Assembly: GCA_905205085.1 (NCBI GenBank)
Contig: CAJLCG010000025.1
Location: forward strand, 1-27,192
Origin: an uncultured Oscillospiraceae bacterium
GTDB lineage: Bacteria > Bacillota > Clostridia > Oscillospirales > Oscillospiraceae
Length of the DNA stretch: 27,192 bases
Direction: 5' to 3'
Numbering within the stretch: the stretch's first letter is position 1; the number at the start of each line of letters is the position of its first letter. Below are positions 4,973 to 26,906 of this stretch, one piece after another. The notes under the pieces were generated by a model that saw only the letters and a program-made list of their open reading frames with translations, was not told the origin of the DNA and did not search any database. Made by a program: the position numbers and the translations under genes.

Positions 4973-4993
4973 TTTAGTGAAAAGAATTTCCCC

Positions 4994-5035
4994 GATAGGG
5001 AGATGTGAGAAAATCACATCTCCCTATCTTTTTTT
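4994..5035 (+). terminator. rho-independent terminator of BlaI/BlaR1 cassette 1
   Basis: A perfect 15-bp stem (4994-5008 with 5014-5028, loop GAAAA) is followed by seven T residues (5029-5035). It lies 22 bases after the stop of the M56 protease gene. Confidence 0.95.
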
Positions 5036-6486: not shown

Positions 6487-6527
6487 CGATCCACGCAGAC
6501 AAATGCAAGGAATGAGAGGGAAAAACA

Positions 6528-7895: not shown

Positions 7896-7913
7896 TAGGA
7901 GGAGCTTGTTGCT

Positions 7914-9563
7914 ATGATCAAAAATCCCATTCTTCCCGGGTTTAACCCCGACCCCTGCATCTGCCGCAAGGGTGACGACTACTACCTGGCGGTGTCCACC
8001 TTTGAGTGGTTTCCCGGCATTCCCATCTATCACTCCCGGGACTTAAAGCACTGGGAGCTCTACACCCATGTTCTCACCGACGACGAGAAGGTGGATCTGA
8101 AAAAGCTGCCCAGCGCCAAGGGAATTTGGGCTCCCTGCCTGACCTACTGCCAGGAGGAGGACCTGTTCTACGTGGTCTACGGCGTGATGAACTCCATGAA
8201 TGCCCGCTACTTCGATGTGGACAACTACCTGATCACCGCAAAAGATATCCGAGGGCCCTGGAGTGAGCCGGTGTATCTGCACTCCTCCGGCTTTGACGCC
8301 TCCATCTTCCACGACGACAATGGCAAAAAGTACATCGTCTCTCTGGAGTGGGAGACCCGCCTGGGCTATGAGAAGCCCGGCTCCATCTGCATGGTGGAAT
8401 ACGACCCCGTAAAGAAGGAGATCGTAGGCTATCCCAAGCGGATGTGGCGCGGCGGAACGGACCGGGGCTGCATCGAGGCCCCCCACCTGACCAAACGGGG
8501 TGAGTATTACTACATCATGTGCGCCGAGGGCGGCACAGGCTATAACCACTGTGTCACCATGGGCCGCAGCTCCCAGGTCTGGGGCCCCTATGAGCGAGAC
8601 CCCCAGAATCCCATTGTGACCAGTGTGCCCGGTGTGTCCTACGAGCGCAGCGACCCGGATCACCTCAAGCCCAAGTATTTTAACCCCGATTCCGTCCTGC
8701 AGAAGTCCGGCCACGGCAGCTACGTGGAGCTGCCCACCGGCGAGGTCTATCTGGTGCACCTGTGTGCCCGTCCCTTTGTCCCCGAGCTCAGCTGCACCCT
8801 GGGCCGTGAGACAGCCATCCAGAAGATGATGTGGACGGAGGACGGCTGGCTGCGCATGGCGGACGGCTCCAATCTGGCTAAGATGGAGGTTCCCGAGTCC
8901 CACTTGCCCGAGGTGCCCCTCCAGATGCCGCCTGCCTTTGATGACTTCGACAGCCCTCAGCTGGGGAATTTTTACTACGCCCCCCGCATCATGCCCTCCC
9001 GGTTTGCCGATGTCACGGCTCGTCCCGGTTGGGTACGCCTGCGGGGCCAGGAGTCCCGCACCTCACTGAACAAGGTAAGCATCCTGGCCCGTAAGCTGAC
9101 CAGCGTCCATGCAAGGATCACCACTAAGATGGACTTCACCCCGGAAGTACACCAACACAGCGCGGGTCTCATTCTCTACTACGATAATATGAACTATATC
9201 AACCTGCGCAAGTACTACAGCGAGACTCTGGGACGCAGCGCCCTGTCCATCATCCATCTGGAAAACGGGGAGAAAACGGAATTCCTCAATACCCGCATTC
9301 CAGTGGACGATGTACCCATCTATCTGCGTCTGACCATCGAGGGCCGCCGGGCGCAGTTCTTCTGGAGCTATGACAATGAGGTGTACCATGCCATCGGCCG
9401 CTGCTTTGCCACCGCCCATTTCTCCGATGAGTACTGCAAGTTTGGAGAGTTTACCGGCACCATGGTAGGCATCACCTGCGCCGACCGGGTGAAGCATTGC
9501 CACTATGCCGACTTTGATTTCTTTGAATATCTGGCCGACGAGGATCGTGCTGTCGACGATTAA
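7914..9563 (+). CDS. glycoside hydrolase family 43 beta-xylosidase/arabinofuranosidase
   Basis: A 549-residue protein, the usual length of the two-domain GH43 beta-xylosidases (about 530-550). The five-bladed propeller starts with NPILPGFNPDPCI, where D13 is the general base. The pKa-modulating Asp is in GFDASIF (D128) and the general acid in GCIEAPHL (E188). The positions agree with the D14/D127/E186 pattern of characterised bacterial beta-xylosidases. The C-terminal part (about 330-540) resembles the concanavalin-like GH43 C-terminal domain that shapes the active-site rim (FDDFDSPQLGNFYYAPR at its start). There is no signal peptide, so it acts on imported xylo-oligosaccharides. An AGGAGG site precedes the ATG. 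It is the last gene before a strong terminator. Confidence 0.92.
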   Translation: MIKNPILPGFNPDPCICRKGDDYYLAVSTFEWFPGIPIYHSRDLKHWELYTHVLTDDEKVDLKKLPSAKGIWAPCLTYCQEEDLFYVVYGVMNSMNARYFDVDNYLITAKDIRGPWSEPVYLHSSGFDASIFHDDNGKKYIVSLEWETRLGYEKPGSICMVEYDPVKKEIVGYPKRMWRGGTDRGCIEAPHLTKRGEYYYIMCAEGGTGYNHCVTMGRSSQVWGPYERDPQNPIVTSVPGVSYERSDPDHLKPKYFNPDSVLQKSGHGSYVELPTGEVYLVHLCARPFVPELSCTLGRETAIQKMMWTEDGWLRMADGSNLAKMEVPESHLPEVPLQMPPAFDDFDSPQLGNFYYAPRIMPSRFADVTARPGWVRLRGQESRTSLNKVSILARKLTSVHARITTKMDFTPEVHQHSAGLILYYDNMNYINLRKYYSETLGRSALSIIHLENGEKTEFLNTRIPVDDVPIYLRLTIEGRRAQFFWSYDNEVYHAIGRCFATAHFSDEYCKFGEFTGTMVGITCADRVKHCHYADFDFFEYLADEDRAVDD

Positions 9564-11347: not shown

Positions 11348-11704
11348 ATGGCTGATATGAAATTAGGTGTAGTAGAAACCCGTTTTGCGGACTTGATATG
11401 GGAACATGAACCCATATCTTCCGGAGAATTAGTCAAACTCTGTGAGGAAAAACTGAGCTGGAAAAAGTCAACAACATATACCATTTTGCGACGGTTGTGT
11501 GAGCGGGGTATTTTCTCAAACGACAAAGGTGCAGTCACATCGCTGATATCCAAAGACGAATTTTATGCCATGCAGAGCGAGAAGTTCGTTGAGGACACAT
11601 TTGAGGGTTCTTTGCCAAGGTTTTTGGCAGCCTTTTCTACGCGAAAAAAGTTATCCGATGACGAAATCAATCAGCTGCAAAAGTTTATCGATGAAATGAG
11701 GTGA
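11348..11704 (+). CDS. BlaI/MecI/CopY-family repressor, cassette 2
   Basis: A 118-residue winged-helix protein, a clear paralog of the cassette 1 repressor. The DNA-reading segment is LSWKKSTTYTILRRLCERGI, compared with LGWKRTTTYTVIKRLGERGV in the other. The C-terminal dimerisation part shares GSLPRFLAAFSTRKKLSDDEINQL. The differences in the recognition helix agree with the two different operator sequences. The ribosome-binding site is weak (GGGGG about 8 bases upstream). The protease gene starts 4 bases after the stop. Codon use here is noticeably less GC-rich than in cassette 1, which hints at a separate origin or later acquisition. Confidence 0.9.
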   Translation: MADMKLGVVETRFADLIWEHEPISSGELVKLCEEKLSWKKSTTYTILRRLCERGIFSNDKGAVTSLISKDEFYAMQSEKFVEDTFEGSLPRFLAAFSTRKKLSDDEINQLQKFIDEMR

Positions 11705-11708
11705 GCGT

Positions 11709-13250
11709 ATGCCATTACCGGCTGCTTTTTTTGCTGTACTCAATATGTCAATTACCGCAAGCATTGCTATTCTTATCATATTGCTTGCAAGGATTGTGTT
11801 GAAGCGCGCACCTAAAATTTTTTCCTATGCACTTTGGGCCGTTGTGCTGTTCCGTTTGCTTTGTCCGGTATCGTTGACGTCGTCGCTCTCCGTGTTGGGC
11901 CTCTTTCCGGCACCCACCACAGAAACGGGCAGAGTGGAGTATGTGTCTTTGGATGTGCCCAATACACAAAGACCAGCAGTTGATGTTGATGACCCTGCTT
12001 CCAATCTTGGTTCAGCGACGGACCATGGTGTTGAATTGCCCATAGCGGAAGGTACGCCAGCGGGTTCTGTTGACGATCTGGTATTGATTGCGAGCATGGT
12101 TTGGATTTGCGGTGTAGCGGCAATGTTGATGTTGAATCTTTTCCAGCTGATACGACTGCGCCGCAAATTAGTTGGCTCGATCCTTTTGCACGATAATATT
12201 TACCTTGCGGATTATATTCCCACGCCCTTTGTGATGGGCTTGATTCACCCGAAAATCTATTTGCCTTCTGCCATGTCCGAGGTCGAGCAATCCTATATCA
12301 TCCAGCACGAAAGGCACCACATCCGCAGAGGCGATCACGTGATCAAGCTGCTTGCGTTTGCGGCCGTGTGCATACACTGGTTTAATCCGCTTGTTTGGCT
12401 GGCATTTGCGCTGGCCAGCAAGGATATGGAAATGTCCTGTGATGAGGCAGTAATGAGGCAAACAGACAGAGATATCAGGGCGGACTATTCCTCCTCTTTG
12501 CTGCAATTCTCCACCGGGAAAAGAGTGGTCATTGGCACGCCCCTTGCCTTTGGGGAGGGAGATACCAAGGAAAGGATTGAGAACATTATGAAGTATAAGA
12601 AGCCGACCATGGTCATCATGGTATTGGCCGTGATCGTATGTGTTGGATTGACGGCCTGCTTGTCCTCCAATCCTCAATCCGGCGCAGGAAAAAACAATCT
12701 CTCGGCAATGGGAGATTTGAAGGCAGAAGATGTGGGAAAAACACTGAGCGAATTAAAAGATGAGCATCCGGAAGGCGAATTGGTCGTAAGGCCAGATGGC
12801 CTCCCAGGCAGTGCTGCTATATGTTTTGGAGAACCGGAAGGAGAATATGCTTACTACTTTTTTGGAACACAGAGCGGCGATGCGGAAAAAGCCATGAATG
12901 AGCTGGAAGACCAGCTGAAATGCGCTGGTTTTCTCACCACAGCAAACATTCTTTTCCCGGACATGGAAGATGAAATGTCCTTTGGAGAGTTCTTCTCCTG
13001 GATCGGTGTGGACGATTATGAGTACTTAGTAGGAGAAGAGGTGATAAGTGGAGAAGGTTGGTTAAGATTCACGTATCATGGTATGGAAGTGATGGTGAAT
13101 ACAAACGAAGTGGATGTCGCTGGCGGATGGGATTTCACAGGAGAAGAGATCGTGAAGCGCAATGCTCCAGTGGCTATTTCAGACCCAGAAATCGTAAATG
13201 CCAATCAAGAATTGGCGGATGCGGTGATGTTCGATGAAGTGGCGTCATGA
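11709..13250 (+). CDS. BlaR1-like M56 membrane metalloprotease/sensor, cassette 2
   Basis: A 513-residue membrane protein with the same plan as the cassette 1 protein: TM segments at about 12-30, 36-52, 123-147 and 300-318, the zinc motif HERHH at residues 200-204, and CDEAV (E246) as third-ligand region. The segment PFVMGLIHPKIYLP before the zinc motif is also shared (PFVLGIFRPVIYLP in cassette 1). The outer C-terminal part (about 319-513) is acidic (FPDMEDEMSFGEFFSWIGVDDYEYLVGEE) and shows no evident similarity to that of cassette 1, so the two should respond to different signals. No penicillin-binding motifs are visible. It lies 4 bases after its repressor gene. Function is inferred from the BlaR1 family. 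Confidence 0.88.
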   Translation: MPLPAAFFAVLNMSITASIAILIILLARIVLKRAPKIFSYALWAVVLFRLLCPVSLTSSLSVLGLFPAPTTETGRVEYVSLDVPNTQRPAVDVDDPASNLGSATDHGVELPIAEGTPAGSVDDLVLIASMVWICGVAAMLMLNLFQLIRLRRKLVGSILLHDNIYLADYIPTPFVMGLIHPKIYLPSAMSEVEQSYIIQHERHHIRRGDHVIKLLAFAAVCIHWFNPLVWLAFALASKDMEMSCDEAVMRQTDRDIRADYSSSLLQFSTGKRVVIGTPLAFGEGDTKERIENIMKYKKPTMVIMVLAVIVCVGLTACLSSNPQSGAGKNNLSAMGDLKAEDVGKTLSELKDEHPEGELVVRPDGLPGSAAICFGEPEGEYAYYFFGTQSGDAEKAMNELEDQLKCAGFLTTANILFPDMEDEMSFGEFFSWIGVDDYEYLVGEEVISGEGWLRFTYHGMEVMVNTNEVDVAGGWDFTGEEIVKRNAPVAISDPEIVNANQELADAVMFDEVAS

Positions 13251-13939: not shown

Positions 13940-13990
13940 GTAGAAAAACAAGTTTCGGCAATATGATGGATTGGGGGACGGGTGAACAAC

Positions 13991-15505
13991 ATGAATGAAA
14001 CGATTGTTTCCATGAAGGGCATCTGCAAATCCTTCCCGGGCGTCAAGGCGCTGGACAACGTCCAGCTGGAGCTGCGCTCGGGTGAGGTGCTGGCTCTTCT
14101 GGGAGAAAATGGCGCAGGTAAGTCCACGCTGATGAAGATCCTCAGCGGGGTATACACCCGGGATTCGGGAACCATGGAGATCTTTGGCCAGCAGTATGGC
14201 GATCTGACGCCCAAGCAGGCCCAGGAGATCGGCGTGGCCATTATCCACCAGGAGCTGAACATGTGCCGGCACCTGTCGGTGGCGGAAAACATGTTCCTGG
14301 GCCGGGAGGAGCGCCGGGGCATCCTCCTCTCCAACCGGAAGATGGAGCAGGAGGCTCAGCGGGTGCTGGATGAGCTGAAGATCGACATCGATCCCCACCA
14401 GGTGGTGGGCGACCTGCCGGTATCCAAGCAGCAGATGGTGGAGATCGCCAAGGCCCTGTCCACCAAGGCCCGCATCCTCATCATGGATGAGCCCACCTCC
14501 GCGCTGACCTCCAAGGAGATCGACGAGCTGTTCCGCATCATCCGCCAGCTCAAGGCCAGCGGCTACGGCATCATCTATATCTCCCACCGTCTGGAAGAGC
14601 TGCAGCACATTGTGGACCGGGTCAGCATCATGCGGGACGGTCAGTACATCACCTCTATGAACTTCCAGGACGCCACCATGGACGAAATCATCGCCCACAT
14701 GGTGGGCCGGGAGATCAAGGAGAAGTTCCCCCGGGTGACCTGCCCCAAGGGGAAGAAGATCTTTGAGGTCAAGAACCTCAACGCCGGGCGGATGGTCCGG
14801 GATGTAAGCTTTGATCTTTACGAGGGAGAGATCGTGGGCTTTGCCGGCCTGATGGGTGCCGGGCGCACCGAGACCACCCGGGCCATCTTCGGCGTAGACC
14901 CCAAGGAGAGCGGTGAGCTCATTCTGGACGGGCAGCCGGTTTCCATCCAGAAGCCCCAGGACGCCATCCGGGCGGGCATCGTGCTGGCTCCCGAGGACCG
15001 GAAGAAGGACGGCCTGTGCACCAAGCTGTCCATCCGCCACAACATCGCCCTGCCCAACCTGGACCTGCTGTGCGGCCCCCTTGGCGTGGTGAACCGCCAA
15101 AAGGAGGACGCCATGTGCCAGCAGGCGGTGGAGAATCTGAAGATCAAGACCCCCGGCGTAGACATCGACGCAGGCAATCTGTCCGGCGGCAACCAGCAGA
15201 AGGTGGTTGTGGGCAAGTGGCTGGCCCGCAACTCCCGGGTGGTCATCTTTGACGAACCCACCCGCGGCATCGACGTAGCCGCCAAGGTGGAAATCTACAA
15301 CCTGATGAACCAGCTCAAGGAGCAGGGCATCGCGGTGATGTTTGTCTCCTCGGAGATGCCCGAGGTCATGGGCATTGCCGACCGGATCATCGTCATGTGC
15401 GACGGACGCATCACCGGAGAGGTCATGGCCCGGGAGACCACCCAGAACGAGATCCTGACCCTGGCCACCAAGTTTGAAACAAAAGTTGCCGGTGCGGCGC
15501 AATAA
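13991..15505 (+). CDS. sugar ABC transporter ATP-binding protein (RbsA/MglA/XylG type)
   Basis: A 504-residue tandem ATPase of the monosaccharide importer (CUT2) class. The first domain has Walker A GENGAGKST (38-46), the signature VSKQQMVEIAKAL and Walker B ILIMDEPTSAL. The second has the usual degenerate P-loop GLMGAGRTE, the signature LSGGNQQKV and Walker B VVIFDEPTRGIDV. It powers uptake through the permease encoded 14 bases downstream. The ATG at 13991 has GGGTGA 5-6 bases upstream and is preferred over the GTG at 13982. CUT2 substrates include ribose, xylose, galactose, allose and lyxose-like sugars; the neighbouring isomerase favours lyxose or mannose. Comparison with the degenerate paralog at 22947-24425 is instructive, as their first P-loops occupy the same residue numbers. 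Confidence 0.93.
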   Translation: MNETIVSMKGICKSFPGVKALDNVQLELRSGEVLALLGENGAGKSTLMKILSGVYTRDSGTMEIFGQQYGDLTPKQAQEIGVAIIHQELNMCRHLSVAENMFLGREERRGILLSNRKMEQEAQRVLDELKIDIDPHQVVGDLPVSKQQMVEIAKALSTKARILIMDEPTSALTSKEIDELFRIIRQLKASGYGIIYISHRLEELQHIVDRVSIMRDGQYITSMNFQDATMDEIIAHMVGREIKEKFPRVTCPKGKKIFEVKNLNAGRMVRDVSFDLYEGEIVGFAGLMGAGRTETTRAIFGVDPKESGELILDGQPVSIQKPQDAIRAGIVLAPEDRKKDGLCTKLSIRHNIALPNLDLLCGPLGVVNRQKEDAMCQQAVENLKIKTPGVDIDAGNLSGGNQQKVVVGKWLARNSRVVIFDEPTRGIDVAAKVEIYNLMNQLKEQGIAVMFVSSEMPEVMGIADRIIVMCDGRITGEVMARETTQNEILTLATKFETKVAGAAQ

Positions 15506-15519
15506 GGGAGGAAATGAGA

Positions 15520-16533
15520 ATGAATGGAACAAAACGGGCCCCGCGCTTTCTCAGCGTCCGGGGCATGGGGGCGGCGCTGACCGCCTTTGCAGGGCTGATC
15601 GTCATCTACATCGCCTTTGGTATCATTGACCGCACCATGTTCTCCGGCAGCAACATCATGAACCTGCTGCGGTCCATGTCCAAGTACCTGCTCATCGGCA
15701 TTGGACAAAGCTACGTCCTCATCACCGGCAACATCGACCTGTCCATCGGCTCGGTGGTCGGCATGAGCGCCATGACCTCGGCCACCCTGATGGTATCCGG
15801 CGTCAACCCGGTGCTGGCCATCCTCATCACCCTGCTGTGCTGCCTGGTGGTGGGCGTGATCAACGGCTTTTTGGTAGGCCAGTTTAAGCTGCCCCCCTTC
15901 ATTGCCACCCTGGGCACCATGTTTGTGGCCCGCGGCATCGCCTACATGGTCAACGGCAACCGCAACACCAACGCCATCTCCTCGGGCATCGGAAAGGAAG
16001 CGGCCGACTCCTTCCAGAACTTCTTCTACTACGGCTCCACCGCCGGCGTGTACAACACCTTCTGGATCGCCCTGATCCTCTTCCTGATTTTCTTCTTCCT
16101 GCTGTCCAAGACCCGCACCGGTCGGCATATCTATGCTATCGGTTCCAACGTGGACGCGGCCAAGCTCTCCGGCGTCAGTGTGGTCACCACCGTCACCAAG
16201 ACCTATCTGGTCAGCGCCTTCTGCGCCGGCGTGGTGGGCCTCATCCTGTGCGCCCAGGCCGGCATGGGCAACATGGAAGCCGGCAACATGTATGAGATGT
16301 ACGGCGTAGCCGCTGGCGTTATCGGCGGTGTGTCTCCTCTGGGCGGCACCGGCTTGTTGCTGGGCACTCTGGCCGGCGCGGCGGTGTGGCAGACTCTGGA
16401 GAACGGCCTGAGCATCATCCATGCCCCGGTTGGCATCCAGCGCATCGTCATCGGCATCATCGTAGTCTTCGCGGTCCTGCTGGACGTGGTGTTCCGCAAG
16501 GGCCTCATCAACCGCAAGAGCATCAAGAAATAA
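15520..16533 (+). CDS. sugar ABC transporter permease (RbsC/XylH type)
   Basis: A 337-residue membrane protein of the BPD_transp_2 family with about 8-10 hydrophobic segments. The characteristic stretch GQSYVLITGNIDLSIGSVVG and the segment LPPFIATLGTMFVARGIAYM match CUT2 permeases. It forms the membrane channel with the preceding ATPase. The start at 15520 is chosen because GGGAGG (15506-15511) is 8 bases upstream; the earlier in-frame ATG at 15514 would leave only 2 bases. The substrate-binding protein gene follows after 63 bases. Confidence 0.93.
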   Translation: MNGTKRAPRFLSVRGMGAALTAFAGLIVIYIAFGIIDRTMFSGSNIMNLLRSMSKYLLIGIGQSYVLITGNIDLSIGSVVGMSAMTSATLMVSGVNPVLAILITLLCCLVVGVINGFLVGQFKLPPFIATLGTMFVARGIAYMVNGNRNTNAISSGIGKEAADSFQNFFYYGSTAGVYNTFWIALILFLIFFFLLSKTRTGRHIYAIGSNVDAAKLSGVSVVTTVTKTYLVSAFCAGVVGLILCAQAGMGNMEAGNMYEMYGVAAGVIGGVSPLGGTGLLLGTLAGAAVWQTLENGLSIIHAPVGIQRIVIGIIVVFAVLLDVVFRKGLINRKSIKK

Positions 16534-16596: not shown

Positions 16597-17562
16597 ATGA
16601 AAAAGAAGATTCTTGCCCTCACCTGCTGCCTGGCTCTGGGGATCGGCCTGCTGGCCGGCTGCAGCAGCGGCGGTTCCGGCTCTGGTTCCGGCTCCGGCTC
16701 CCAGACTCCCTCTGGCTCCGGCTCTCAGACCAGCTCCGACGCCAAGATCGCCCTGATCACCATGGACTCCATCGACCAGCACTGGGTCACCCTGAACGAG
16801 GGCGCTCAGAAGGCCGCCAAGGAGCTGGGTGTCACCGTGGACTTCATGGCCCCCAACACCAAGGATGACGCTCTGCAGATCGAGCAGGTCAACAATGCCG
16901 TGGCCGGCGGCTATGATGCCATTCTGGTGGCCGCCAACGGCCCCGACGCCATCTCCGGTGCCCTGAAAGAGGCTGCCGCTGCCGGCGTGAAGATCGTCTA
17001 CGTAGACTCTCCCGCCAATGTGGACGCTGCCGCCACCTTCTCCACCGACAACGCCGCCGCCGGCAAGAAGGCCGGTGAGGAGATGCTCAAGGCTCTGACC
17101 GACGCTGGCGTGACCTCCGGCGACATCGGCGTCATCAACGTCAACGCCGCTACCGACTCCTGCGTCAAGCGTGAGGAAGGCTTCCGCTCCGCCTTTGAGG
17201 GTACCGATTTCAACATCCTGGAGACCCAGTACTGCGAGGGCGACGCTGCTAAGAGCCAGTCCAGCGCTGAGAACTTCATCACCCAGGGCGTGGTCGGCAT
17301 CTTCGGTGCCAACGAGGGTTCCACCACCGGCATCGGCAACGCCATCAAGGCTTCCGGCAAGACCGACATCATCGGTGTGGGCTTTGATAAGTCTGACGCC
17401 ATCCTGAACCTCATCAACGACGGTTACCTGCTGTGCACCATGGCTCAGAACCCCGACGTGATGGGCTATGAGGGCGTGAAGGCCGCTGTGGCCGCCATCA
17501 ACGGCGAGGACCTGGGCGGCAAGGTCACCGACACCGGCGTCTCCGTGCTGACCAAGGAGTAA
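16597..17562 (+). CDS. sugar-binding lipoprotein of the ABC importer (RbsB-like)
   Basis: A 321-residue type I periplasmic-binding-protein fold. The N-terminal signal MKKKILALTCCLALGIGLLA ends in the lipobox LLAGC, so it is a membrane-anchored lipoprotein. A Gly/Ser-rich linker of about 25 residues (about 24-48) tethers the domain. The body starts with AKIALITMDSIDQHWVTLNEGAQKAAKELG, typical of ribose/galactose-type binding proteins, and has the hinge-proximal segment IFGANEGSTTGIGNAI. AAGGAGG lies before the start. Codon use is extreme (almost only C/G or preferred third bases), suggesting very high expression. A hairpin follows (17595-17626). The ligand is probably an aldopentose or aldohexose, inferred from the isomerase gene next door. 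Confidence 0.93.
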   Translation: MKKKILALTCCLALGIGLLAGCSSGGSGSGSGSGSQTPSGSGSQTSSDAKIALITMDSIDQHWVTLNEGAQKAAKELGVTVDFMAPNTKDDALQIEQVNNAVAGGYDAILVAANGPDAISGALKEAAAAGVKIVYVDSPANVDAAATFSTDNAAAGKKAGEEMLKALTDAGVTSGDIGVINVNAATDSCVKREEGFRSAFEGTDFNILETQYCEGDAAKSQSSAENFITQGVVGIFGANEGSTTGIGNAIKASGKTDIIGVGFDKSDAILNLINDGYLLCTMAQNPDVMGYEGVKAAVAAINGEDLGGKVTDTGVSVLTKE

Positions 17563-17704: not shown

Positions 17705-18388
17705 ATGAAACGCAGTGAGATCAACGCCGCACTGAAAGAGATGGAACAGATGGTAAAGGAGTACCGCTTTGCCCTGCCCCCCTTCTGTGATTTTACTCCG
17801 GAGCAGTGGCAGGAAAAAGGCCACGACTACGATGAGATTCGGGACAACATGCTGGGCTGGGACATCACAGACTACGGCATGGGTAACTTTAACAAGATGG
17901 GCTTCTCCCTTATTACCATCCGCAATGGCAACCTGAAGATGGATAAGTACACCAAGACCTACGCTGAGAAGCTGCTGTACATCAAAGAGGGCCAGTACTC
18001 CCCCATGCACTTCCACTGGTCCAAGATGGAGGACATCATCAATCGGGGCGGCGGCAACGTGCTGATCCGGGTGTATAACTCCACCCCCGACGAGGATCTG
18101 GATAAGGAGTCTGAGGTCCATGTCCATGTGGACGGCCGGGAGATGGTGGTCCCTGCGGGCAGCCAGGTCCGTCTGACCCCCGGTGAGAGCATCACCATCT
18201 ACCCCTATCTCTACCACGACTTTGAGGTGGAGCCCGGCTCTGGCCCCGTGCTGCTGGGCGAAGTGAGCCAGTGCAACGACGACAATACGGACAACCGCTT
18301 TTATGAGAAGCTGGGCCGCTTCCCCGCCATTGAGGAGGACGAAGCCCCCTACCGCCTGCTGTGCAACGAGTACCCGGCGGCTAAGTAA
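17705..18388 (+). CDS. D-lyxose ketol-isomerase (also acts on D-mannose in this family)
   Basis: A 227-residue cupin-type enzyme matching the D-lyxose isomerase family (YdaE-like) over its full length. Metal ligands are visible: HFHWSKME gives H102, H104 and E109, and H171 is in YLYHDFE. Known members convert D-lyxose to D-xylulose and D-mannose to D-fructose with Mn2+. An AGGAGG site lies 8 bases before the ATG. The next two genes (mutarotase, PfkB kinase) follow within 12-15 bases, so the set forms a compact catabolic module behind the importer. Which sugar is physiological cannot be decided from sequence. Confidence 0.9.
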   Translation: MKRSEINAALKEMEQMVKEYRFALPPFCDFTPEQWQEKGHDYDEIRDNMLGWDITDYGMGNFNKMGFSLITIRNGNLKMDKYTKTYAEKLLYIKEGQYSPMHFHWSKMEDIINRGGGNVLIRVYNSTPDEDLDKESEVHVHVDGREMVVPAGSQVRLTPGESITIYPYLYHDFEVEPGSGPVLLGEVSQCNDDNTDNRFYEKLGRFPAIEEDEAPYRLLCNEYPAAK

Positions 18389-18400
18389 AAGGAGGCCGAC

Positions 18401-19279
18401 ATGGGTTACACCACCCTTGAAAACAGCCGGCTGAGGCTGACCGTGGACTCTCTGGGCGCCCAGATGATGAGCCTGCAGACCCTGGATGGCCGGGAGTATC
18501 TGTGGCAGGGAGACCCCCGCTACTGGTGCGACCGGGCGCCCGTCCTCTTCCCGTTTGTGGGGCGCCTCACCGGCAATTCCTACCGGTATGGGGGCCAGGT
18601 CTACTCCATGGGCATCCACGGCTTTGCGGCCCATCAGGACTTTTCCTGCCTTTGTCCCGAGCCCAATCGCCTGGTTCTGCAGCTCACCGATAACGGGGAA
18701 ACCCGGGAACAGTATCCCTTTGCCTTCTCCCTGAACATTATCTATGAACTGATCGACAACCGGGTACAGGTCACCTATCAGGTGGAAAACTCAGGCACTG
18801 GGATGCTGCCCTTCGGTATCGGCGGGCACCCGGGTTTTCGGGTCCCCCTGGAGGAGGGAGAACAGTTTGACGACTATATTCTGGAGTTTACCGGCGGGTG
18901 CCAGCCGGATCGGGTCGGCTTCACGCCCCAGGTATTTTTAAGCGGCCAGGCCCAGCCATATCCTCTGAAAGAGGGAAAATATCTGCCTCTGCGGCATGAC
19001 CTCTTTGATGAGGACGCGGTGATTTTGAAGAACATGTCCCGGGAAGTGACCCTTCGTTCCCAGGTATCGCCCCACGGCGTACAGGTGAGCTATCCGGACA
19101 TGCCCTATCTGGGACTGTGGCATATGCCTAACACCGACGCGCCCTATCTTTGCATCGAACCCTGGAGCTCCCTGCCTGCCCGCCAGGACGTGGTGGAGGA
19201 CTTCGCATGCAAAAGCGACCTGATCCAGCTGGGCCCCGGTAAAACCTACGTCAACACCTGGAGCATCACAATTTTCTGA
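18401..19279 (+). CDS. aldose 1-epimerase (GalM/LacX-like mutarotase)
   Basis: A 292-residue cytoplasmic beta-sandwich enzyme. Family landmarks are FPFVGRL near residue 50, the active-site histidines in MGIHGFA (H73) and GGHPGF (H143), and the catalytic glutamate in LCIEPWSSLP (E253). It interconverts alpha and beta anomers of free aldoses, useful here because the imported sugar must be in the form the isomerase accepts. AAGGAGG precedes the start. It is spaced 12 bases from the isomerase and 15 from the kinase gene, so co-translation is likely. Confidence 0.9.
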   Translation: MGYTTLENSRLRLTVDSLGAQMMSLQTLDGREYLWQGDPRYWCDRAPVLFPFVGRLTGNSYRYGGQVYSMGIHGFAAHQDFSCLCPEPNRLVLQLTDNGETREQYPFAFSLNIIYELIDNRVQVTYQVENSGTGMLPFGIGGHPGFRVPLEEGEQFDDYILEFTGGCQPDRVGFTPQVFLSGQAQPYPLKEGKYLPLRHDLFDEDAVILKNMSREVTLRSQVSPHGVQVSYPDMPYLGLWHMPNTDAPYLCIEPWSSLPARQDVVEDFACKSDLIQLGPGKTYVNTWSITIF

Positions 19280-19294: not shown

Positions 19295-20251
19295 ATGGAT
19301 GTTGTTGCGTTGGGAGAGCTTTTGATCGACTTTGCCTGCCTGGACACTGACCAGGACGGCTATCCTACCATGGCGGCCCACCCCGGCGGCGCACCCTGCA
19401 ACTTTTTGGCGGCGCTGAACAAGTACGGAGCCAAGACCGCCTTTCTGGGCAAGGTGGGGGATGACGCCTTCGGCGCCCTGCTGCGCAGGACCCTGGAGCA
19501 GTCGGGCATTGATACCCGGGGGCTGCTCACCGACCCGGCGGTATTTACCACCCTGGCTTTTGTTACCTTTGACGCCCAGGGCGACCGCTCCTTCAGCTTT
19601 GCCCGCAAGCCGGGGGCGGATATCCTTTTGCACGAGAAAGAGCTGGACTTCTCCCTCATCGACCAGGCCAAGGTATTCCACTTCGGTACCCTCAGCCTGA
19701 CCGATGAGCCGGCCCGCTCCGCCACCCGGGCGGCGGTGGCCTATGCCAAAGAGAAGGGCAAGCTCATCACCTTTGACCCCAACCTGCGCAAGCCCCTTTG
19801 GTCTAGCCTGGACCGTGCCCGGGAGGAGATTCTGTGGGGGCTGAGCCAGGCGAATGTGGTAAAGATCAGCGAGGACGAAGTGGACTTCCTCTGGGGCTGT
19901 GATCCCCAGGAGGGGGCCCGGCGGCTTCTGGAGGAGCACGGCGTGTCCCTGGCTATGGTCACTCTGGGCAGTGAGGGATGCCTGTTGGCCAACGCCCTGG
20001 ACAGCGTGCGGGTTCGAGGGCCCAAGGTGACGCCGGTGGACACCACCGGTGCGGGAGATATCTTCGGCGGCAGCGCGGTGAGCCGCCTGCTGGAGCTGGG
20101 TAAGGACCCGGCCCAGCTGAACCGGGAGGAGCTTTTGTATGTGGCTCAATTTGCCGTCACCGCCGCCAGTCTGTCTACGCAGGTTCCGGGAGGAATCCCA
20201 AGCATCCCCGACCGGGCCGTCGTGGAACAGACCATGCAGAAGTTGGGCTGA
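19295..20251 (+). CDS. PfkB-family sugar kinase (fructokinase-like)
   Basis: A 318-residue ribokinase-fold enzyme. The first signature is HPGGAPCNFLAALNKYG...LGKVGDDAFG (30-60) and the second DTTGAGDIFGGS (249-260) with the catalytic base D255. The anion-hole GAGD is intact. ATP-dependent phosphorylation of a ketose is expected: fructose to fructose 6-phosphate or xylulose to its phosphate, which would complete the mannose or lyxose route begun by the isomerase. PfkB proteins with the GGAPxNxA start are most often fructokinases, so the mannose/fructose branch is slightly favoured. AAAGGAGAG lies before the ATG. Confidence 0.9.
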   Translation: MDVVALGELLIDFACLDTDQDGYPTMAAHPGGAPCNFLAALNKYGAKTAFLGKVGDDAFGALLRRTLEQSGIDTRGLLTDPAVFTTLAFVTFDAQGDRSFSFARKPGADILLHEKELDFSLIDQAKVFHFGTLSLTDEPARSATRAAVAYAKEKGKLITFDPNLRKPLWSSLDRAREEILWGLSQANVVKISEDEVDFLWGCDPQEGARRLLEEHGVSLAMVTLGSEGCLLANALDSVRVRGPKVTPVDTTGAGDIFGGSAVSRLLELGKDPAQLNREELLYVAQFAVTAASLSTQVPGGIPSIPDRAVVEQTMQKLG

Positions 20252-20285: not shown

Positions 20286-21869
20286 ATGCTCAAAGTGATC
20301 ATCGCAGACGATGAAGAGCGGGTCTGTCGGCTGGTACAGGTGTTGGCAGACTGGGATGCTTTGGGCATGGAGGTGGCAGGCACGGCTTCCAACGGGCTGG
20401 AGGCCCTGGAACTGGTCAAGCAGGTCCGGCCGGATATTCTCATCACTGACATCCGCATGCCGGGATGCTACGGCCTGGAGCTCATCCAGCACGCCAAGGA
20501 AAGCCTGCCTCAGCTGGAAATTGTCATTATCAGCGGCTACGCCCACTTTGAGTACGCCCAGAGCGCCATCAAGCACGGGGTGGGGGACTATCTGCTCAAG
20601 CCCATCCAAAAGGGAGAACTGATGGCCACCTTGCAGAAGCTGGGGGACCGGTGCCGGGCCCGGCAGGCCCAGGGGCAGCAGGCGGTAAGTCAGTACAGCC
20701 AGGAGGACCTGTTTCGCCTGCAAAACCGGCTGGTGCTGGATCTGGCGCAGCGGCGGCTGAAGGCCCCCTCCGCCAATCTTTTGGAGCAGGAGTACCACGT
20801 TTCTGTGCAGCCCGGCCTGCTGCAGGTCATACTACTGAAGCTGGACTACGATCTGGACCAGTTCTCCCCCGGCTCGGTGGGAGTAATCTGGGAGAAAGCC
20901 AAGAAAATTTTTGAGCCCATGCTCCAGCCGGTGTGTCACGGCATCGTCTTCTATTTTCAGGATGCCTGGGGATGTGCCATTCTCAACTATTCCCCCTCCC
21001 AGCGGGAGGCTCTGCGGAGCCGTCTCCGGGAGGGGCTCAATCAGCTGGTGGCCCAGCAGGCACTGTTTGGGCCGGTGGAGTGCTCCCTGGGGCTGAGCAC
21101 ACCGACAGACCGGCCGGAGGATCTGCCCCAGCGCTTCTGGGAAGCCAATGATGCCATTTGTGAGCGGCTGCTGGAGGGCAGCGGCCGCCTGCTGGAGGGA
21201 CGTCCCGCCTCCTCCGCTCTGGCGGAGGAGAATCTGTTGGAGCGCTATGGCCGCAGTGTGGAGCTGCTGATGGACACCCTGGGACAGCTCCAGGCCCAGC
21301 AGGCCGCCCAGCAGCTGGAGGAGAGCGCCTTGGCGGTGCCGGGTGTCCGGGGCCGGGAGCTGCTGGAGCTGGTGCGCTCGGCGGGAAAGCTGTTTGCCCT
21401 GCGGGTGTGCGGCGAGGACGCCCGCCAGGAGACCGAGCACTTTGAGAAGCAGTGCCTGCAGTGCAGCCGGGCGTCGGACCTGTTTGTGTGCCTGCGGCAA
21501 TTTCAGGGCCGCCTGCTGGAGCGCACTCTCCAGCGCCGGGAAAGTGAGAGCCAGCGGCCCATCCGGGTGGCCAAGCAGTACGTGCAGAGCCACTACAGCC
21601 AGAACATCACCCTGGAAGACGTGTGCGCGGCCACCGGCTTCAGCGTAAGTTATTTCAGCGCCCTGTTTAAAAAGGAGACGGGGGAGGGCTTTGCCAAGTA
21701 CCTCACCCGAGTACGGATGGAGCGGGCCAAGGAGCTGCTTCAGGAGACCAATTTGCCGGTGGCGGAGATCTGTTCCCAGGTGGGCTACGGTGATTTGAAG
21801 CACTTCAATCAGACCTTTAAAAAGGTGACCAGCCTCAGCCCCGGCCAGTACCGGAAGCTGTACGGATAA
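20286..21869 (+). CDS. YesN-type response regulator (receiver plus AraC HTH)
   Basis: A 527-residue regulator. The N-terminal receiver has the acidic pair ADDEE (D8, D9), the phospho-acceptor D55 in ILITDIRMPG, S83 in IISGYAHFEYA and K105 in YLLKPI. The middle (about 125-420) is a long linker domain common in YesN proteins. The C-terminal AraC HTH (about 425-525) has NITLEDVCAATGFSVSYFSALFKKETG and the end LKHFNQTFKKVTSLSPGQYRK. An earlier in-frame ATG exists at 20139, but it lies inside the kinase gene; the ATG at 20286 has GGGAGAG upstream and gives the canonical receiver start MLKVIIADDE. The sensor kinase follows 31 bases later. It probably controls this sugar locus. Confidence 0.93.
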   Translation: MLKVIIADDEERVCRLVQVLADWDALGMEVAGTASNGLEALELVKQVRPDILITDIRMPGCYGLELIQHAKESLPQLEIVIISGYAHFEYAQSAIKHGVGDYLLKPIQKGELMATLQKLGDRCRARQAQGQQAVSQYSQEDLFRLQNRLVLDLAQRRLKAPSANLLEQEYHVSVQPGLLQVILLKLDYDLDQFSPGSVGVIWEKAKKIFEPMLQPVCHGIVFYFQDAWGCAILNYSPSQREALRSRLREGLNQLVAQQALFGPVECSLGLSTPTDRPEDLPQRFWEANDAICERLLEGSGRLLEGRPASSALAEENLLERYGRSVELLMDTLGQLQAQQAAQQLEESALAVPGVRGRELLELVRSAGKLFALRVCGEDARQETEHFEKQCLQCSRASDLFVCLRQFQGRLLERTLQRRESESQRPIRVAKQYVQSHYSQNITLEDVCAATGFSVSYFSALFKKETGEGFAKYLTRVRMERAKELLQETNLPVAEICSQVGYGDLKHFNQTFKKVTSLSPGQYRKLYG

Positions 21870-21900: not shown

Positions 21901-22950
21901 ATGGACTGGCGGCGGCAGGCTCGCTTTTTGTCGGTGCGGAGCGTATATGTGGGACTGGGCCTTGGTCTGGCCGCCCTGACGGGGGCGGCGGGCATCGTGA
22001 TAGGTGCCGTCACAGGCCGTCCGGCGTTCGGTGCTTTGGCCTTATGCCTGATCCTTTTGGCAGCCAGCGCGCTGGCAGGCTGGTTTTGGATTGCCTTGCC
22101 CTACTATGGTTTTGAGCGGGCCATCCGCGCTTTTTTGGAAGAGTACCCCACAAACGGCACACCGGCAGGCGAGGCCCCCATCTCTCCGGGCACTGAGCGG
22201 CTACTGGAGCAGGCCCGGGCGGTGATGAACCCCTCCCAGCTCTTCAAGCTCAACAAGCGCCAGGCCCAGTACCTGGCCCTGCAAAACCAGATCAATCCCC
22301 ACTTTCTCTACAACACCCTGGAGAGTATCCGCAGTGAGGCTCTCATTGCGCAGCTGGACAGCGTGGCCGACATGACTGAGGCTCTGGCCTCCTTCTTCCG
22401 CTACACCATCAGCAAGGTAGAAAATCTGGTGTCGGTAGAGGAGGAGCTGCAAAACTGCCAGACCTATTTCCGCATCCAGCGCTACCGCTTCGGCGAGCGG
22501 CTGAAGCTGAGCATTGAGTACGACCCCGACGACCAGGAGGAGATCTTCCGCTGCCGCCTGCCCAAGCTGACCATGCAGCCCATCCTGGAAAACAGCATCA
22601 TTCATGGCACCGAGCTGAAGATCGGCACCAGCCAGCTCACCATCCACCTGGAGCGCACCCAGCGTAGGCTGCTCATCCGGGTGTCGGACAATGGCATCGG
22701 CATGGACGCGGAGACTCTGGCCCGAGTCAACGGCCGGCTGGGCCGGGGCGGTCTGTCAGCGGTGGGGCATGAGGGAGAGCAGCGCGGCGGCGTGGCTCTG
22801 GTCAATGTGGACGACCGCATCCGCCTGCTGTTTGGCAGCGAATACGGCCTGCACGTGTTCTCCATCCAGGGCAGCGGCACCGATGTGGAGATCACTCTGC
22901 CCGCCATCACCAGCGACCGGGATATTCCCAACCAGGAGGCTCTGTCATGA
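21901..22950 (+). CDS. short YesM/LytS-type sensor histidine kinase lacking an extracellular sensor
   Basis: A 349-residue kinase, far shorter than usual YesM proteins (about 550-600). Two hydrophobic segments at about 15-38 and 42-66 are joined by only a few residues, so almost nothing protrudes from the membrane. The His_kinase domain has QNQINPHFLYNTLE (128-141) with phospho-acceptor H134. The ATPase domain has the N-box LTMQPILENSIIHG (223-236), DNGIGMD (263-269) and VNVDDRIRLLFG (301-312). It pairs with the YesN-type regulator upstream. Because it has no ligand-binding domain of its own, it probably depends on a partner, and the next gene overlaps it by 4 bases (ATGA). GGGGAG lies about 9 bases before the ATG. 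Confidence 0.92.
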   Translation: MDWRRQARFLSVRSVYVGLGLGLAALTGAAGIVIGAVTGRPAFGALALCLILLAASALAGWFWIALPYYGFERAIRAFLEEYPTNGTPAGEAPISPGTERLLEQARAVMNPSQLFKLNKRQAQYLALQNQINPHFLYNTLESIRSEALIAQLDSVADMTEALASFFRYTISKVENLVSVEEELQNCQTYFRIQRYRFGERLKLSIEYDPDDQEEIFRCRLPKLTMQPILENSIIHGTELKIGTSQLTIHLERTQRRLLIRVSDNGIGMDAETLARVNGRLGRGGLSAVGHEGEQRGGVALVNVDDRIRLLFGSEYGLHVFSIQGSGTDVEITLPAITSDRDIPNQEALS

Positions 22951-24425
22951 GAGAGGAGATCCTTCGCCTGGAGCGGGTCACCTGCCGGGAGCAGGGCGTG
23001 GTACAGCTGGAAAACTTCAACTTACAAATTTTTCGAGGGGAAATCATGGGCCTCTTGGCGGTAAACAGTCACGGCCTGAACACTCTCGTCCGTCTGCTGC
23101 GACGCAGGCTTCCATTGGAGCGGGGCTATGTGTATTACCGGGAGCGGCAGATCAATGCCTGGGGCAGCCAAATCCCCGACCGCACCCTCCAGCGCATCGG
23201 CATCATTGAAAACCGCAGTTCCCTGGTCTCCGGCATGACAGTGTCCGACAACATCTTTGTGCTGCGTCCCAGCTTTAAAAGCTGGCTCATCCGCCCGTCT
23301 CTGCTGCGCACCCAGCTGGAGCCTGTTTTGGAGCAGTTAGGCGCTGACTTTTCTCCTGACGACTATGTGGACCGGCTGACTCCCTTCCAGCGCTTTGTGG
23401 TAGAGATGCTCAAGGCGGTATTGGGGGGATGTCGGCTGATTGTGCTGCGGGAGGTGTCCACCTTCATCAGTGACGCTGACCTCTCCCGTCTGCACGCCAT
23501 CATCCGAAAATTTGCCCAGGAGGGCATCTCATTTCTCTATATCGGCTACCACTTTGAGGAGCTGCGGGAGATCTGCGACCGCACTGCCCTGCTGATGAAC
23601 GGCACCATCCCCAAGGTGCTGCTGCGGGGCGAACCGCTGTTTCCCTGTGGTGAACCATACCACCAGCTGGTGCGGGGGCAGATGGAGCGGGAGAATAGCC
23701 CGGCTCATACAGAGCAGGTTGCTTTCCAGGCTTGCCATGTAACTGGTGGGGAGGTGCGCGATCTGAGCTTCTCTGTTCAGCCAGGGGAGTGCGTGGTGCT
23801 CCAGGACTTGAACAACCAGATTTTTGGAGACCTGCTGAACCTGATTACTGGACAGTTGTCCTTGGAGAAGGGAAACTTTGAGCTGGAGGGAAAACTGTTT
23901 GTCCCTGGCTATACCCGGGAGATGGCGATCCTGCTGGAGCATGCCCACGATTCTATGCTGATTAAAGAAATGAGCGTGCTGGATAATCTGTGCTTTACCC
24001 TGGACCACCGGTTGCCTGAGGTGTGGCGCAGCAACCGACTGCGCCGGGGTATCCAGCAGGAATGCGGAGAATTGTTGGACCCGGAACTGTTTTCCTTGTG
24101 GCCTGACCAGCTGACCAAGCCCCAGAAGTATGATTTGATCTATACCCGTGTTCTGCTGCAAAAACCCAAGGTTATTTTTTGTGTTCAACCGTTCCAAGGT
24201 GCGGATATGGAACTACGTATGCGGATATGGAACCATCTAAAGCGGCTGTTAGAACAAGGGGCAGCTTTAGTGATCCTGGCGGTAAATTTGGCCGACAGTC
24301 TATCTCTGGCCCATCAGCTCATACGAGTTCATCGCGGTGGTCCCCATGAATACTATAGCCGAGAGGACTTTTCGCGCCTATCCGATACAACTCCCTGGGC
24401 TGATTTTTATCAGCACTTTGGATAA
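22947..24425 (+). CDS. ATPase-dead RbsA-like tandem ABC protein, coupled to the histidine kinase gene
   Basis: A 492-residue protein that aligns end to end with RbsA/MglA-type ATPases (GEIMGLL-N-HGLNTLVRLL for the first P-loop region, YHFEEL for the H-loop region, MELRMRIWNHLKRLLEQG near the end) yet has lost the catalytic residues. The first P-loop reads AVNSHGLNT (38-46), with L44 in place of the invariant Lys. The first Walker B reads VLREVST, with R168 for Asp. The second P-loop region reads DLNNQIFGD, the second signature TKPQKYD and the second Walker B FCVQPFQGAD (V413 and Q414 for Asp-Glu). ATP hydrolysis is therefore very unlikely. AGGAGG stands 7 bases before the ATG. The start overlaps the kinase stop, implying coupled translation. 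I infer a sensory or scaffold role. Confidence 0.85.
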   Translation: MREEILRLERVTCREQGVVQLENFNLQIFRGEIMGLLAVNSHGLNTLVRLLRRRLPLERGYVYYRERQINAWGSQIPDRTLQRIGIIENRSSLVSGMTVSDNIFVLRPSFKSWLIRPSLLRTQLEPVLEQLGADFSPDDYVDRLTPFQRFVVEMLKAVLGGCRLIVLREVSTFISDADLSRLHAIIRKFAQEGISFLYIGYHFEELREICDRTALLMNGTIPKVLLRGEPLFPCGEPYHQLVRGQMERENSPAHTEQVAFQACHVTGGEVRDLSFSVQPGECVVLQDLNNQIFGDLLNLITGQLSLEKGNFELEGKLFVPGYTREMAILLEHAHDSMLIKEMSVLDNLCFTLDHRLPEVWRSNRLRRGIQQECGELLDPELFSLWPDQLTKPQKYDLIYTRVLLQKPKVIFCVQPFQGADMELRMRIWNHLKRLLEQGAALVILAVNLADSLSLAHQLIRVHRGGPHEYYSREDFSRLSDTTPWADFYQHFG

Positions 24426-25276: not shown

Positions 25277-25789
25277 ATGCAGCTGCAAAAAGAAACCCAC
25301 CCGTTGTCTGATTCAGCATTTTTATCGCTGCTTCAGGCCCGTAAAACTTCCTTCTACCGTGTGGCCTACGGATATGTAAAAAACGAGGAAGACGCTAAAG
25401 ACATTGTCCAGGAGGCAGTTTGTAAAGCTTATATGGCAAAGGACAAACTCAAAGAGACAGCTAAGTTTTATCCCTGGTTTTACCGGATCCTGACCAATAC
25501 CGCTATCGCCTTCCTGCGGCAGTCCTCCCGCACGATCTCGTGGGATGAGGAATTGTTACAGCTTCCTTCCAACGAGGACACCGACTGTCAGGATGACAAG
25601 CTGTGGATCCACGACTCCCTGAAGCGACTTGATGCCAAGTCCCGCACGGTAATCATTCTGAAAGTCTACGAAGGTATGAAGTTTTTTGAAATTGCCCAAA
25701 TTCTGAACAAACCAGAAAGCACCGTGAAGTCCATGTACTATCGCGGACTGCAATTTTTAAAAGAAAGGATGCAATGCAATGGAACGTGA
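25277..25789 (+). CDS. ECF-type RNA polymerase sigma factor
   Basis: A 170-residue sigma-70 family protein with only regions 2 and 4. Region 2 is seen in RKTSFYRVAYGYVKNEEDAKDIVQEAVCKAY and FYPWFYRILTNTAIAFLR, and region 4 in LKRLDAKSRTVIILKVYEGMKFFEIAQILNKPESTVKSMYYRGLQFLKE. Such factors redirect RNA polymerase in response to envelope or other stress. AAAGGAGG lies about 12 bases before the ATG, slightly far. The next gene starts inside its last codons (11-base overlap) and encodes the probable anti-sigma factor. I could not identify its own promoter. Confidence 0.92.
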   Translation: MQLQKETHPLSDSAFLSLLQARKTSFYRVAYGYVKNEEDAKDIVQEAVCKAYMAKDKLKETAKFYPWFYRILTNTAIAFLRQSSRTISWDEELLQLPSNEDTDCQDDKLWIHDSLKRLDAKSRTVIILKVYEGMKFFEIAQILNKPESTVKSMYYRGLQFLKERMQCNGT

Positions 25790-26906
25790 TCACCGTTTTT
25801 CTATTTCCATTCCAGATGATCTGGACGATGTGATCCTCAGAGGAATGAACCAAGGAAAGACCCGCGCGGCTCACCGCAGACGACTCAAGCGCACTGCGGC
25901 CTGTATCGCCTGCTCCTTTGCGCTGGTAGCAGGACTATTTTTAGGCGGTGTCTACACTTCTCCTAGCTTTGCGGCCTCTGTGGAGCAGATACCTGTCCTG
26001 GGGCAGCTGGTGCATATTTTTTATAAAAACCAGCCCGTTGTGGAAGGCGGCACCCAGACAGAGGGCGGCACCGCCTCCATCACCATGGAGCGCACTGGTA
26101 GCACCGAGCAAATGCGCCTGACCTTCCAGCAGACAGACGCTGCGCTTTATAAGGCTGAGTTTGCCTCCTATCCTAAGACTATCACCATTTCTCTTCCCGG
26201 TACGAGGGGCGTTGAAGTTCTCTCGGAGATCTCCCGCGCCAAAGATACCAGCCAGTATATCAAGTCGGTTTATCAGCTCCCCACCAGTACAGAGGATACC
26301 ACGCTGATCCAGCTGGAACTAGAGTGTGACGCAGACGTGCAGATTGAGGAATACCGGGATCCCGGCAGTCTGGTGGTCTGGCTGTCTCCCACCGCCCCCC
26401 AGTTGGACACCATCTATTCTGTACGCACCTTGTCTTTTAACGCTGCGTCCGTCCAAGACGCACTTTCGCCATACGCCGAGCAGAAACTCCGTCTTCTCCA
26501 GGATGACCATGGTTACTTCTTTGGAGAACTGGCTCAGTATCCCACCAGGGCTGAGGCGGAAGCCGCCAGTGCTTCCTTTGCCGGAGATGTCATTGTGGAA
26601 ATGCGTACCGGAAACAATGTCCCCGTCTGCTTTGAGACAATGAGCGGCTATCAAAGCAGCCAATTCCTGGATGAGTACTATCAGCTTCTGATCTCCGCTT
26701 CTTCCTCCGAATCTGTTCTTGACTTCCTGGATCAGCATTTCGCTCAGGCCAGCGCCGAAGAACAGAGCGTGATGCTAAAAGGCTTGGACGGACTGTTGCA
26801 AGATACCGACGAAAACGCCGACTGGGCACATATTGCTTCTTTCTATCACCTGGCGGGACAGGAGGTCCCTGAGCATATTCAGCAGCGCCTGAGTGATCAA
26901 AAGTAA
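25779..26906 (+). CDS. membrane anti-sigma factor (DUF4179-like)
   Basis: A 375-residue single-pass protein. The N-terminal cytoplasmic part (1-38) contains an IPDDLDDVILRGM helix that can contact the sigma factor. A basic stop RRRLKR precedes the TM segment at about 39-60, followed by SPSFAASVEQIPVLGQLVHIF, which is typical of DUF4179-type anti-sigma proteins. The large outer domain (about 65-375) would receive the signal. It starts 11 bases inside the sigma gene, so the two are translationally coupled. The middle of the outer domain (KTITISLPGTRGVEV) I cannot place in a family. The role as sigma inhibitor is inferred from context and architecture. Confidence 0.85.
   Translation: MERDHRFSISIPDDLDDVILRGMNQGKTRAAHRRRLKRTAACIACSFALVAGLFLGGVYTSPSFAASVEQIPVLGQLVHIFYKNQPVVEGGTQTEGGTASITMERTGSTEQMRLTFQQTDAALYKAEFASYPKTITISLPGTRGVEVLSEISRAKDTSQYIKSVYQLPTSTEDTTLIQLELECDADVQIEEYRDPGSLVVWLSPTAPQLDTIYSVRTLSFNAASVQDALSPYAEQKLRLLQDDHGYFFGELAQYPTRAEAEAASASFAGDVIVEMRTGNNVPVCFETMSGYQSSQFLDEYYQLLISASSSESVLDFLDQHFAQASAEEQSVMLKGLDGLLQDTDENADWAHIASFYHLAGQEVPEHIQQRLSDQK

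Follow-up and report, generated by a model that had tools for sequence, protein, structure and literature searches.

In the window, that is, the whole stretch of 27,192 nucleotides analyzed here from an uncultured Oscillospiraceae bacterium (GenBank assembly GCA_905205085.1, contig CAJLCG010000025.1), the genes of a two-component system are directly followed by a gene for a tandem ATP-binding cassette (ABC) protein, which resembles the RbsA/XylG ATPases of sugar importers but has lost the residues of ATP hydrolysis (hereafter, the dead ABC). The genes of this module and the telling segments of the dead ABC are the following:

20286..21869, + strand: YesN-type response regulator with an AraC-type DNA-binding domain, 527 amino acids (Pfam PF00072, PF12833)
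21901..22950, + strand: short histidine kinase of the YesM/LytS class, 349 amino acids (Pfam PF06580 and PF02518), with two membrane helices and almost no loop (hydropathy)
22934..22939, + strand: ribosome-binding site AGGAGG of the dead ABC gene, whose start codon overlaps the kinase stop (ATGA)
22947..24425, + strand: dead tandem ABC protein (pseudo-ATPase), 492 amino acids, intact open reading frame (ORF), RbsA/XylG-like
23052..23084, + strand: first Walker A remnant LLAVNSHGLNT, with Leu44 in place of Lys
23238..23264, + strand: TVSDNIFVL (residues 98–106), following the first Q-loop; one of the pair of 9-mers that rank as best conserved in the family, likely a groove for a membrane partner
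23430..23462, + strand: first Walker B remnant CRLIVLREVST, with Arg168 in place of Asp and Glu169 kept
23538..23564, + strand: first H-loop remnant YIGYHFEEL, with Tyr201 in place of His and the family-invariant H202 and E204
23799..23831, + strand: second P-loop remnant LQDLNNQIFGD
23970..23996, + strand: MSVLDNLCF (residues 342–350), following the second Q-loop; the second 9-mer of this top-ranking pair, likely with the same structural role
24168..24200, + strand: second Walker B remnant KVIFCVQPFQG, where the family has FCxQPF at the position of IFDEPT in the intact ABC

An earlier note on this DNA had described an RbsA-like layout in which Leu44 replaces the first P-loop Lys and Arg168 the first Walker B Asp, with an unrecognizable second P-loop and no second Walker B Asp-Glu, all within an intact frame with a good ribosome-binding site and an ATGA overlap with the kinase gene; alignment bears out the lost motifs, and the gene arrangement is as described. 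In the first ATP site, Lys, Asp, and His are all replaced, leaving Glu169 as the sole kept residue, and the second Walker B is devoid of its Asp-Glu pair. The protein is placed in the RbsA/XylG type by homology across both halves together with its tandem ABC fold, and yet it falls far below the NCBIfam equivalog cut-off (111.5 bits at best vs. 699), scoring 79–112 bits on ten sugar-type models with cut-offs of 586–850. Its best full-length matches in Foldseek and VIA-align are peptide importer ATPases, which only speaks for a shared fold, and no RbsA-type ATPase was present among the matches listed. On the alignment, we consider the observation of a predicted catalytically dead tandem ABC ATPase beside a two-component system as real and confirmed.

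This loss is the property of a family rather than of one gene. A protein search returned 674 homologues, and among the best 120 of them (46–94% identity) plus the window, neither the Walker A Lys nor the H-loop His is kept in any sequence (0/121 each), the first Walker B Asp is found in 6/121 and its Glu in 53/121, and, in the second Walker B, Asp is absent throughout (0/121) while Glu is replaced by Gln in 120/121. New conserved motifs occupy old sites, namely the first H-loop (HxE), the second Walker B (FCxQPF), the second signature (QKYDLV), and the second H-loop site (VILAVNLAD). In a scan of genome contigs, the best 80 of 245 loci comprised 65 from the dead ABC family (L001–L065, 33–92% identity) and 15 ordinary RbsA-type proteins (L066–L080, 23–26%); since at least two pairs of family loci stem from single assemblies (L003 with L064, L032 with L063), these 65 loci do not amount to 65 genomes. 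Across the 65 loci and the window, a Lys stands at the Walker A position in 14 of 66 rows, and the residue next to it is in every case Asn, Gln, Glu, or Lys; the first Walker B Asp is kept in 14 rows and the Glu in 31; the H-loop His (one row gapped) and both second Walker B acids are kept in none. The intact ABCs of the same loci have Asp, Glu, and His in 48/48 cases and Lys in 47, with one gap. The expectation of the earlier note that homologues would lack the same residues thus holds for the Lys among the best 120 of 674, and no complete site was found in the contig loci either, but the Lys itself persists in 14/66 rows, without the Ser or Thr that should follow it.

The gene is also maintained, as the earlier note had concluded. 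For 14 of the 20 pairs compared, ratios of nonsynonymous to synonymous substitution rates (dN/dS, YN00) range from 0.039 to 0.118, far from 1; five pairs gave no value, and the 0.367 of the pair L018–L022 was set aside, the mechanical ORF starting far upstream, in the kinase-gene region. The intact ABCs give 0.019–0.047 (11 pairs with a value), and several of the synonymous rates exceed 1, so these ratios are rough. The dead ABC, with values above those of the intact ABC and still low, therefore evolves faster under clear purifying selection. In 12 whole genomes chosen as carriers, exactly one high-scoring dead ABC is present in each (580–773 bits), when the other RbsA-type matches stay at or below 193 bits (7–39 matches in all per genome). 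Within 200 genomes from the family of one carrier genome, the dead ABC is present in 12 (13 copies in total) and is hence accessory, not universal.

The link between the dead ABC and its kinase is well supported. The window kinase (21901–22950) carries His_kinase (PF06580) and HATPase_c, as YesM/LytS kinases do, and hydropathy gives it the architecture of intramembrane-sensing kinases, in which two helices are joined by a very short loop, without an extracellular domain. The kinases of the family loci are mostly of 337–386 residues (mechanical ORFs), nearly all rows showing two hydrophobic helices and a short loop by hydropathy. A kinase ORF lies directly upstream of the dead ABC in 64 of the 65 loci, at a gap of at most 285 bases, the exception being a contig that begins inside the dead ABC gene (L037). 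The mechanical ORFs of L018 and L022 run too long, the actual match beginning at the kinase end, and kinase or ABC frames look broken in L060 and L065. A YesN-type regulator is found within 120 bases of the kinase in 62/64 loci (the contig of L027 is too short, and L060 is irregular), and kinase and dead ABC ORFs overlap by exactly 4 bases in 34/65 rows including the window, with ORF starts set mechanically.

The same association is recovered when starting from the kinase. An alignment of the kinases was searched in the same 200 genomes, 118 of which had matches at 1e-50, with up to 10 candidates scored per genome, and matches were taken in rank order among those listed: 54 at 228 bits or more (L113–L165, L193), then the next 27 (L166–L192). 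Three further kinases of at least 228 bits were left out, their dead ABC neighbors being already known as L108, L110, and L112. A tandem ABC ORF is directly downstream (fewer than 200 bases away, same strand) in 51 of the 54 higher-scoring loci, fused to the kinase in L145, versus none of the next 27. These 27 lower-ranked kinases have 488–639 amino acids, with loops of at least 149 residues in the 26 measured. Among the 54, 43 combine two helices with a loop of at most 26 amino acids, three have one helix found, seven have none, and only L140 has a long loop (218 residues). The missing helices of L146 were not used, as its kinase ORF starts, at the contig end, with unrelated GTPase-like sequence, which may be an assembly chimera or a real fusion. 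If kinases are grouped by loop instead of score, the adjacency is 50/53 versus 1/28 (Fisher p 5e-17, although relatedness makes these loci far from independent). Of the three kinases without a tandem ABC downstream, L149 has, upstream of the regulator gene, a one-domain ABC devoid of the Walker A Lys, and L151 and L154, both without transmembrane helices, have no dead ABC. In a quick tree of 96 kinases, built on kinase-domain columns only, the two sets separate with a support of 94, and the adjacency label (L149 being counted as linked) requires two changes, as does the loop label. Elsewhere, in 26 genomes of one class and 148 of one family, an ABC ORF adjoins all seven kinase matches at 1e-70, two of which are repeats. 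The linkage to short YesM-type kinases put forward in the earlier note is thus upheld from both sides.

Beyond the close family, 50 of the kinase-adjacent ABCs were aligned; the one outside the alignment (L193) keeps, by eye, Lys and Asp and not Glu. A complete first-site set of Lys, Asp, Glu, and His is found in a single one of the 50 (L159), while the residues taken singly are kept in 30, 23, 7, and 8 of them, respectively; ABCs located further off in these loci, which were selected for scoring more than 380 on the intact model, have the complete first set in 25/25 cases. With the set missing in 49 of 50, hydrolysis has likely been lost nearly throughout the kinase-adjacent ABCs. In a quick ABC tree with 12 long branches, from which L143 and L145 were left out, the 25 intact ABCs stand on one side (support 99) and L159 and L140 are nearest to them, which fits a progressive decay; dead ABCs as one group receive a support of only 20, and may or may not share a single origin.

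Upstream of the module, the window encodes a sugar importer and sugar-metabolism proteins, among them the candidate docking partner of the dead ABC:

13982..15505, + strand: intact cognate sugar ABC ATPase, RbsA/XylG type
15514..16533, + strand: sugar ABC permease, RbsC type (Pfam PF02653), the inferred docking partner
16597..17562, + strand: sugar-binding protein, RbsB type (Pfam PF13407)
17705..18388, + strand: D-lyxose isomerase family protein (Pfam PF07385), recurring near the module
18401..19279, + strand: aldose 1-epimerase family protein (Pfam PF01263)
19295..20251, + strand: PfkB family sugar kinase (Pfam PF00294)

Among 65 rows including the window, 36 have an intact ABC of this importer type upstream of the module and 13 have one downstream, many of the other 16 being cut contigs. 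Of this transporter, L023 has the binding protein only: intact ABC and permease are missing, and an integrase-like ORF (4631–5728) precedes the genes for binding protein, regulator, kinase, and dead ABC, an arrangement that, as read from the sequence, resembles a mobile-element insertion. The sugar-binding protein ORF reaches about 600 residues (591–651 amino acids) in 22/65 family loci, and the three that were read (L003, L021, and L043) are head-to-tail double domains; the window version is single. Further away in the window, a cellulase-like hydrolase, a sugar symporter-like protein, a GH43-like hydrolase, and then an AraC-type regulator (5302–9563) may, to judge from sequence, be part of the same sugar diet. 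Two gene pairs (3098–4972 and 11348–13250) resemble a BlaI/MecI-type repressor with a BlaR1-type membrane protease, and a sigma factor-like ORF overlaps a membrane ORF, its apparent anti-sigma partner (25277–26906).

Several clues bear on the partners of the dead ABC. In L145 (3218–5068), kinase and one dead ABC half share one frame of 616 residues, and the best 120 of its 712 homologues (P0122–P0241) measure 612–617 residues at 92–97% identity, a uniformity that denotes one narrow lineage; one of them bears the name sensor histidine kinase of Oribacterium parvum. The ABC half of the fusion is recognized by the NCBIfam AraG model (residues 486–610, E 1.2e-7) and scores 90 bits on the dead ABC family model; an AlphaFold2 model of the whole, with a mean predicted local distance difference test score of 52.7 and a predicted template modeling score of 0.36, is too poor to inform on the packing of kinase and ABC half. 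Four kinases of 257–283 residues (L138, L162, L163, and L165) have no hydrophobic stretch and are still followed by a dead ABC, and, since they sit hard behind the regulator gene, there is no room for a hidden upstream helix. In L162 (1510–4831) and L165 (1644–4838), a BPD_transp_2 permease gene comes directly after the dead ABC, so that the operons read regulator, soluble kinase, dead ABC, and permease; the contig of L163 stops after the dead ABC, and in L138 a permease and a binding protein are encoded upstream. Over the 14 kilobases that follow L162 and L165 downstream, no intact tandem sugar ABC was found; the stretch after L165 (L202) does encode two ABC proteins, of 317 and 336 amino acids, which have permease and binding-protein neighbors like those of peptide importers and were rejected, by sequence, as tandem sugar ABCs.

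Evolutionary distances over 48 loci, expressed as partial correlations given the other three genes and without a significance test, are highest for kinase–dead ABC (0.517) and intact ABC–permease (0.505), followed by regulator–kinase (0.383), regulator–dead ABC (0.350), kinase–intact ABC (0.214), and kinase–permease (0.209), with −0.055 for dead ABC–intact ABC; the dead ABC codiverges with the kinase as tightly as the intact ABC does with the permease. The kinase is thus favored as a partner by both the L145 fusion and the distances. The permease is also favored, through segment conservation and the gene order of two loci: in ABC importers of known structure, the post-Q-loop segments face the coupling helix of the permease, and precisely these segments, one per half, provide the two best-conserved 9-mers in the family, TVSDNIFVL and MSVLDNLCF, when the Walker A sites and signatures of both halves show near-average conservation, and in L162 and L165, where the kinase has no transmembrane helix, a permease gene stands beside the dead ABC.

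That the dead ABC gene has been kept next to that of a kinase without a sensing domain in gut and other anaerobes suggests that it reports the activity of the sugar pump to this kinase. On this basis, we favor, with a probability of roughly 55%, that it is a pseudo-ATPase adaptor reading the sugar permease and controlling the sensorless kinase, the simplest account, in which we infer physical docking on both partners, the direction of signaling, and the genes controlled. A dedicated signaling adaptor would have derived from a sugar-importer ATPase, retaining the tandem ABC fold and the permease-facing segments while losing the residues of ATP hydrolysis; it would bind the short kinase devoid of a sensor domain of its own and dock on a sugar permease, either the RbsC-type protein of its own operon or one encoded elsewhere. 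Binding protein and sugar would alter the permease, and the adaptor would in turn alter the kinase, which would phosphorylate the YesN regulator and thereby adjust uptake and sugar-catabolism genes. A number of observations weigh against this account. The partial correlation between dead ABC and permease is weak (0.169); two modules have none of this transporter in their surroundings (L018, over 10 kilobases on both sides, and L034, over 10 and 6 kilobases); and two kinases of the same clade without transmembrane helices (L151 and L154) have no dead ABC at their locus. Binding protein and permease genes lie upstream of the kinase in the latter two. On the L145 fusion, Pfam returns only kinase domains above cut-offs and no ABC domain. 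With the Lys kept in 30/50, some members of the wider group may bind nucleotide. Lastly, two former catalytic regions that carry new residues, the second Walker B and the first H-loop, reach conservation percentiles of 0.97 and 0.93, versus 0.96 and 0.91 for the post-Q-loop segments, and such conservation of new residues at old catalytic sites resembles what would be expected of a new pocket.

The main rival of the adaptor, which we deem unlikely, is that the dead ABC acts on the kinase only, as a cytosolic ligand sensor whose ATP pocket now binds a sugar, a sugar phosphate, or a nucleotide, leaving the permease untouched. The natural fusion to the kinase alone, a codivergence strong with the kinase and weak with the permease, the modules L018 and L034, and the new conserved residues (FCxQPF, H202/E204), at former sites that rank among the best-conserved regions, would all suit such a sensor, which explains less well why the top two 9-mers follow the Q-loops when conservation at the Walker A sites and signatures is close to average, and why a permease gene directly follows the dead ABC next to kinases without transmembrane helices. 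A decoy that would throttle transport by occupying the permease in place of the intact ABC, its proximity to the kinase reflecting shared regulation only, appears more improbable still: the dead ABC does have the fold, and likely the docking surface, of the intact ABC of its operon, but a decoy accounts neither for the kinase-specific linkage (51/54 vs. 0/27) nor for the L145 fusion, nor for modules without an intact tandem ABC found nearby, nor for a codivergence with the kinase and not with the intact ABC. As for a decaying pseudogene or a sequencing artefact, which the lost catalytic residues of the window could evoke, it is hardly credible for a gene with 674 homologue matches (full length among the best 120), a dN/dS of 0.039–0.118 in 14/20 pairs, and one high-scoring copy in each of 12 carrier genomes.

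If the dead ABC were the missing input of short YesM kinases without a sensor domain, proteins named, for example, sugar ABC transporter ATP-binding protein would be signaling proteins, and an evolutionary series from working ATPase to signaling adaptor could be traced: L159 with its complete first site, L140 with its long-loop kinase and part-dead ABC, the fully dead family, and finally the fused kinase and the kinases without transmembrane helices. More tentatively, and at somewhat less than even odds, we propose that this is an undescribed and widespread type of bacterial sensor, in which a sugar-importer ATPase stripped of catalysis serves as the cytosolic subunit of a histidine kinase, and whose extreme form (L162, L165) would be a receptor made of a non-pumping permease and a dead ABC. 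No dead ABC protein acting as the partner of a YesM kinase was apparent among the open-licence PubMed Central papers listed by our searches, which is weak evidence of novelty.

Among known proteins, the importer ATPases RbsA, XylG, and AraG are homologues of the dead ABC that share its tandem layout and fold, the difference being the catalytic residues that it has lost. MalK–MalT, PstB–PhoU–PhoR, and SUR/Kir6 offer examples of a regulator or a channel controlled by an ABC ATPase or by its complex, but these ABC subunits keep nucleotide binding or hydrolysis and belong to working proteins. The earlier note had drawn a parallel with the flux sensing of BceAB–BceS, the kinase of which is of the intramembrane-sensing type like that of the window. 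The principle stands, that of a transporter-coupled kinase without a sensor domain, and the family does not: BceAB is an active detoxification transporter of an exporter-type system and BceS belongs to a different kinase class, when the window has an importer and a dead ATPase. According to an excerpt of PMC6978683, the BceS kinase of the BceAB–BceS–BceR system of Bacillus subtilis receives its signal via the ABC transporter (flux sensing), and the transporter genes are under control of the system; an excerpt of PMC3023708 further describes a large extracytoplasmic domain in the BceB-type permease beside the kinase. Here, the transporter is instead an RbsA-type importer with a BPD_transp_2 permease, the kinase is of the YesM/LytS class, and a separate dead ABC stands beside the intact one. 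Also comparable, as far as an excerpt of PMC10384115 describes them, are the three-component systems XylFII–LytS and CuaD–CuaS–CuaR, in which clostridial sugar uptake likewise involves a protein from the world of ABC transporters coupled to a kinase and a regulator. In these systems, a second binding protein contacts the extracellular domain of the kinase, whereas the window kinase has no extracytoplasmic domain to meet a binding protein, and the additional protein is a dead ABC ATPase.

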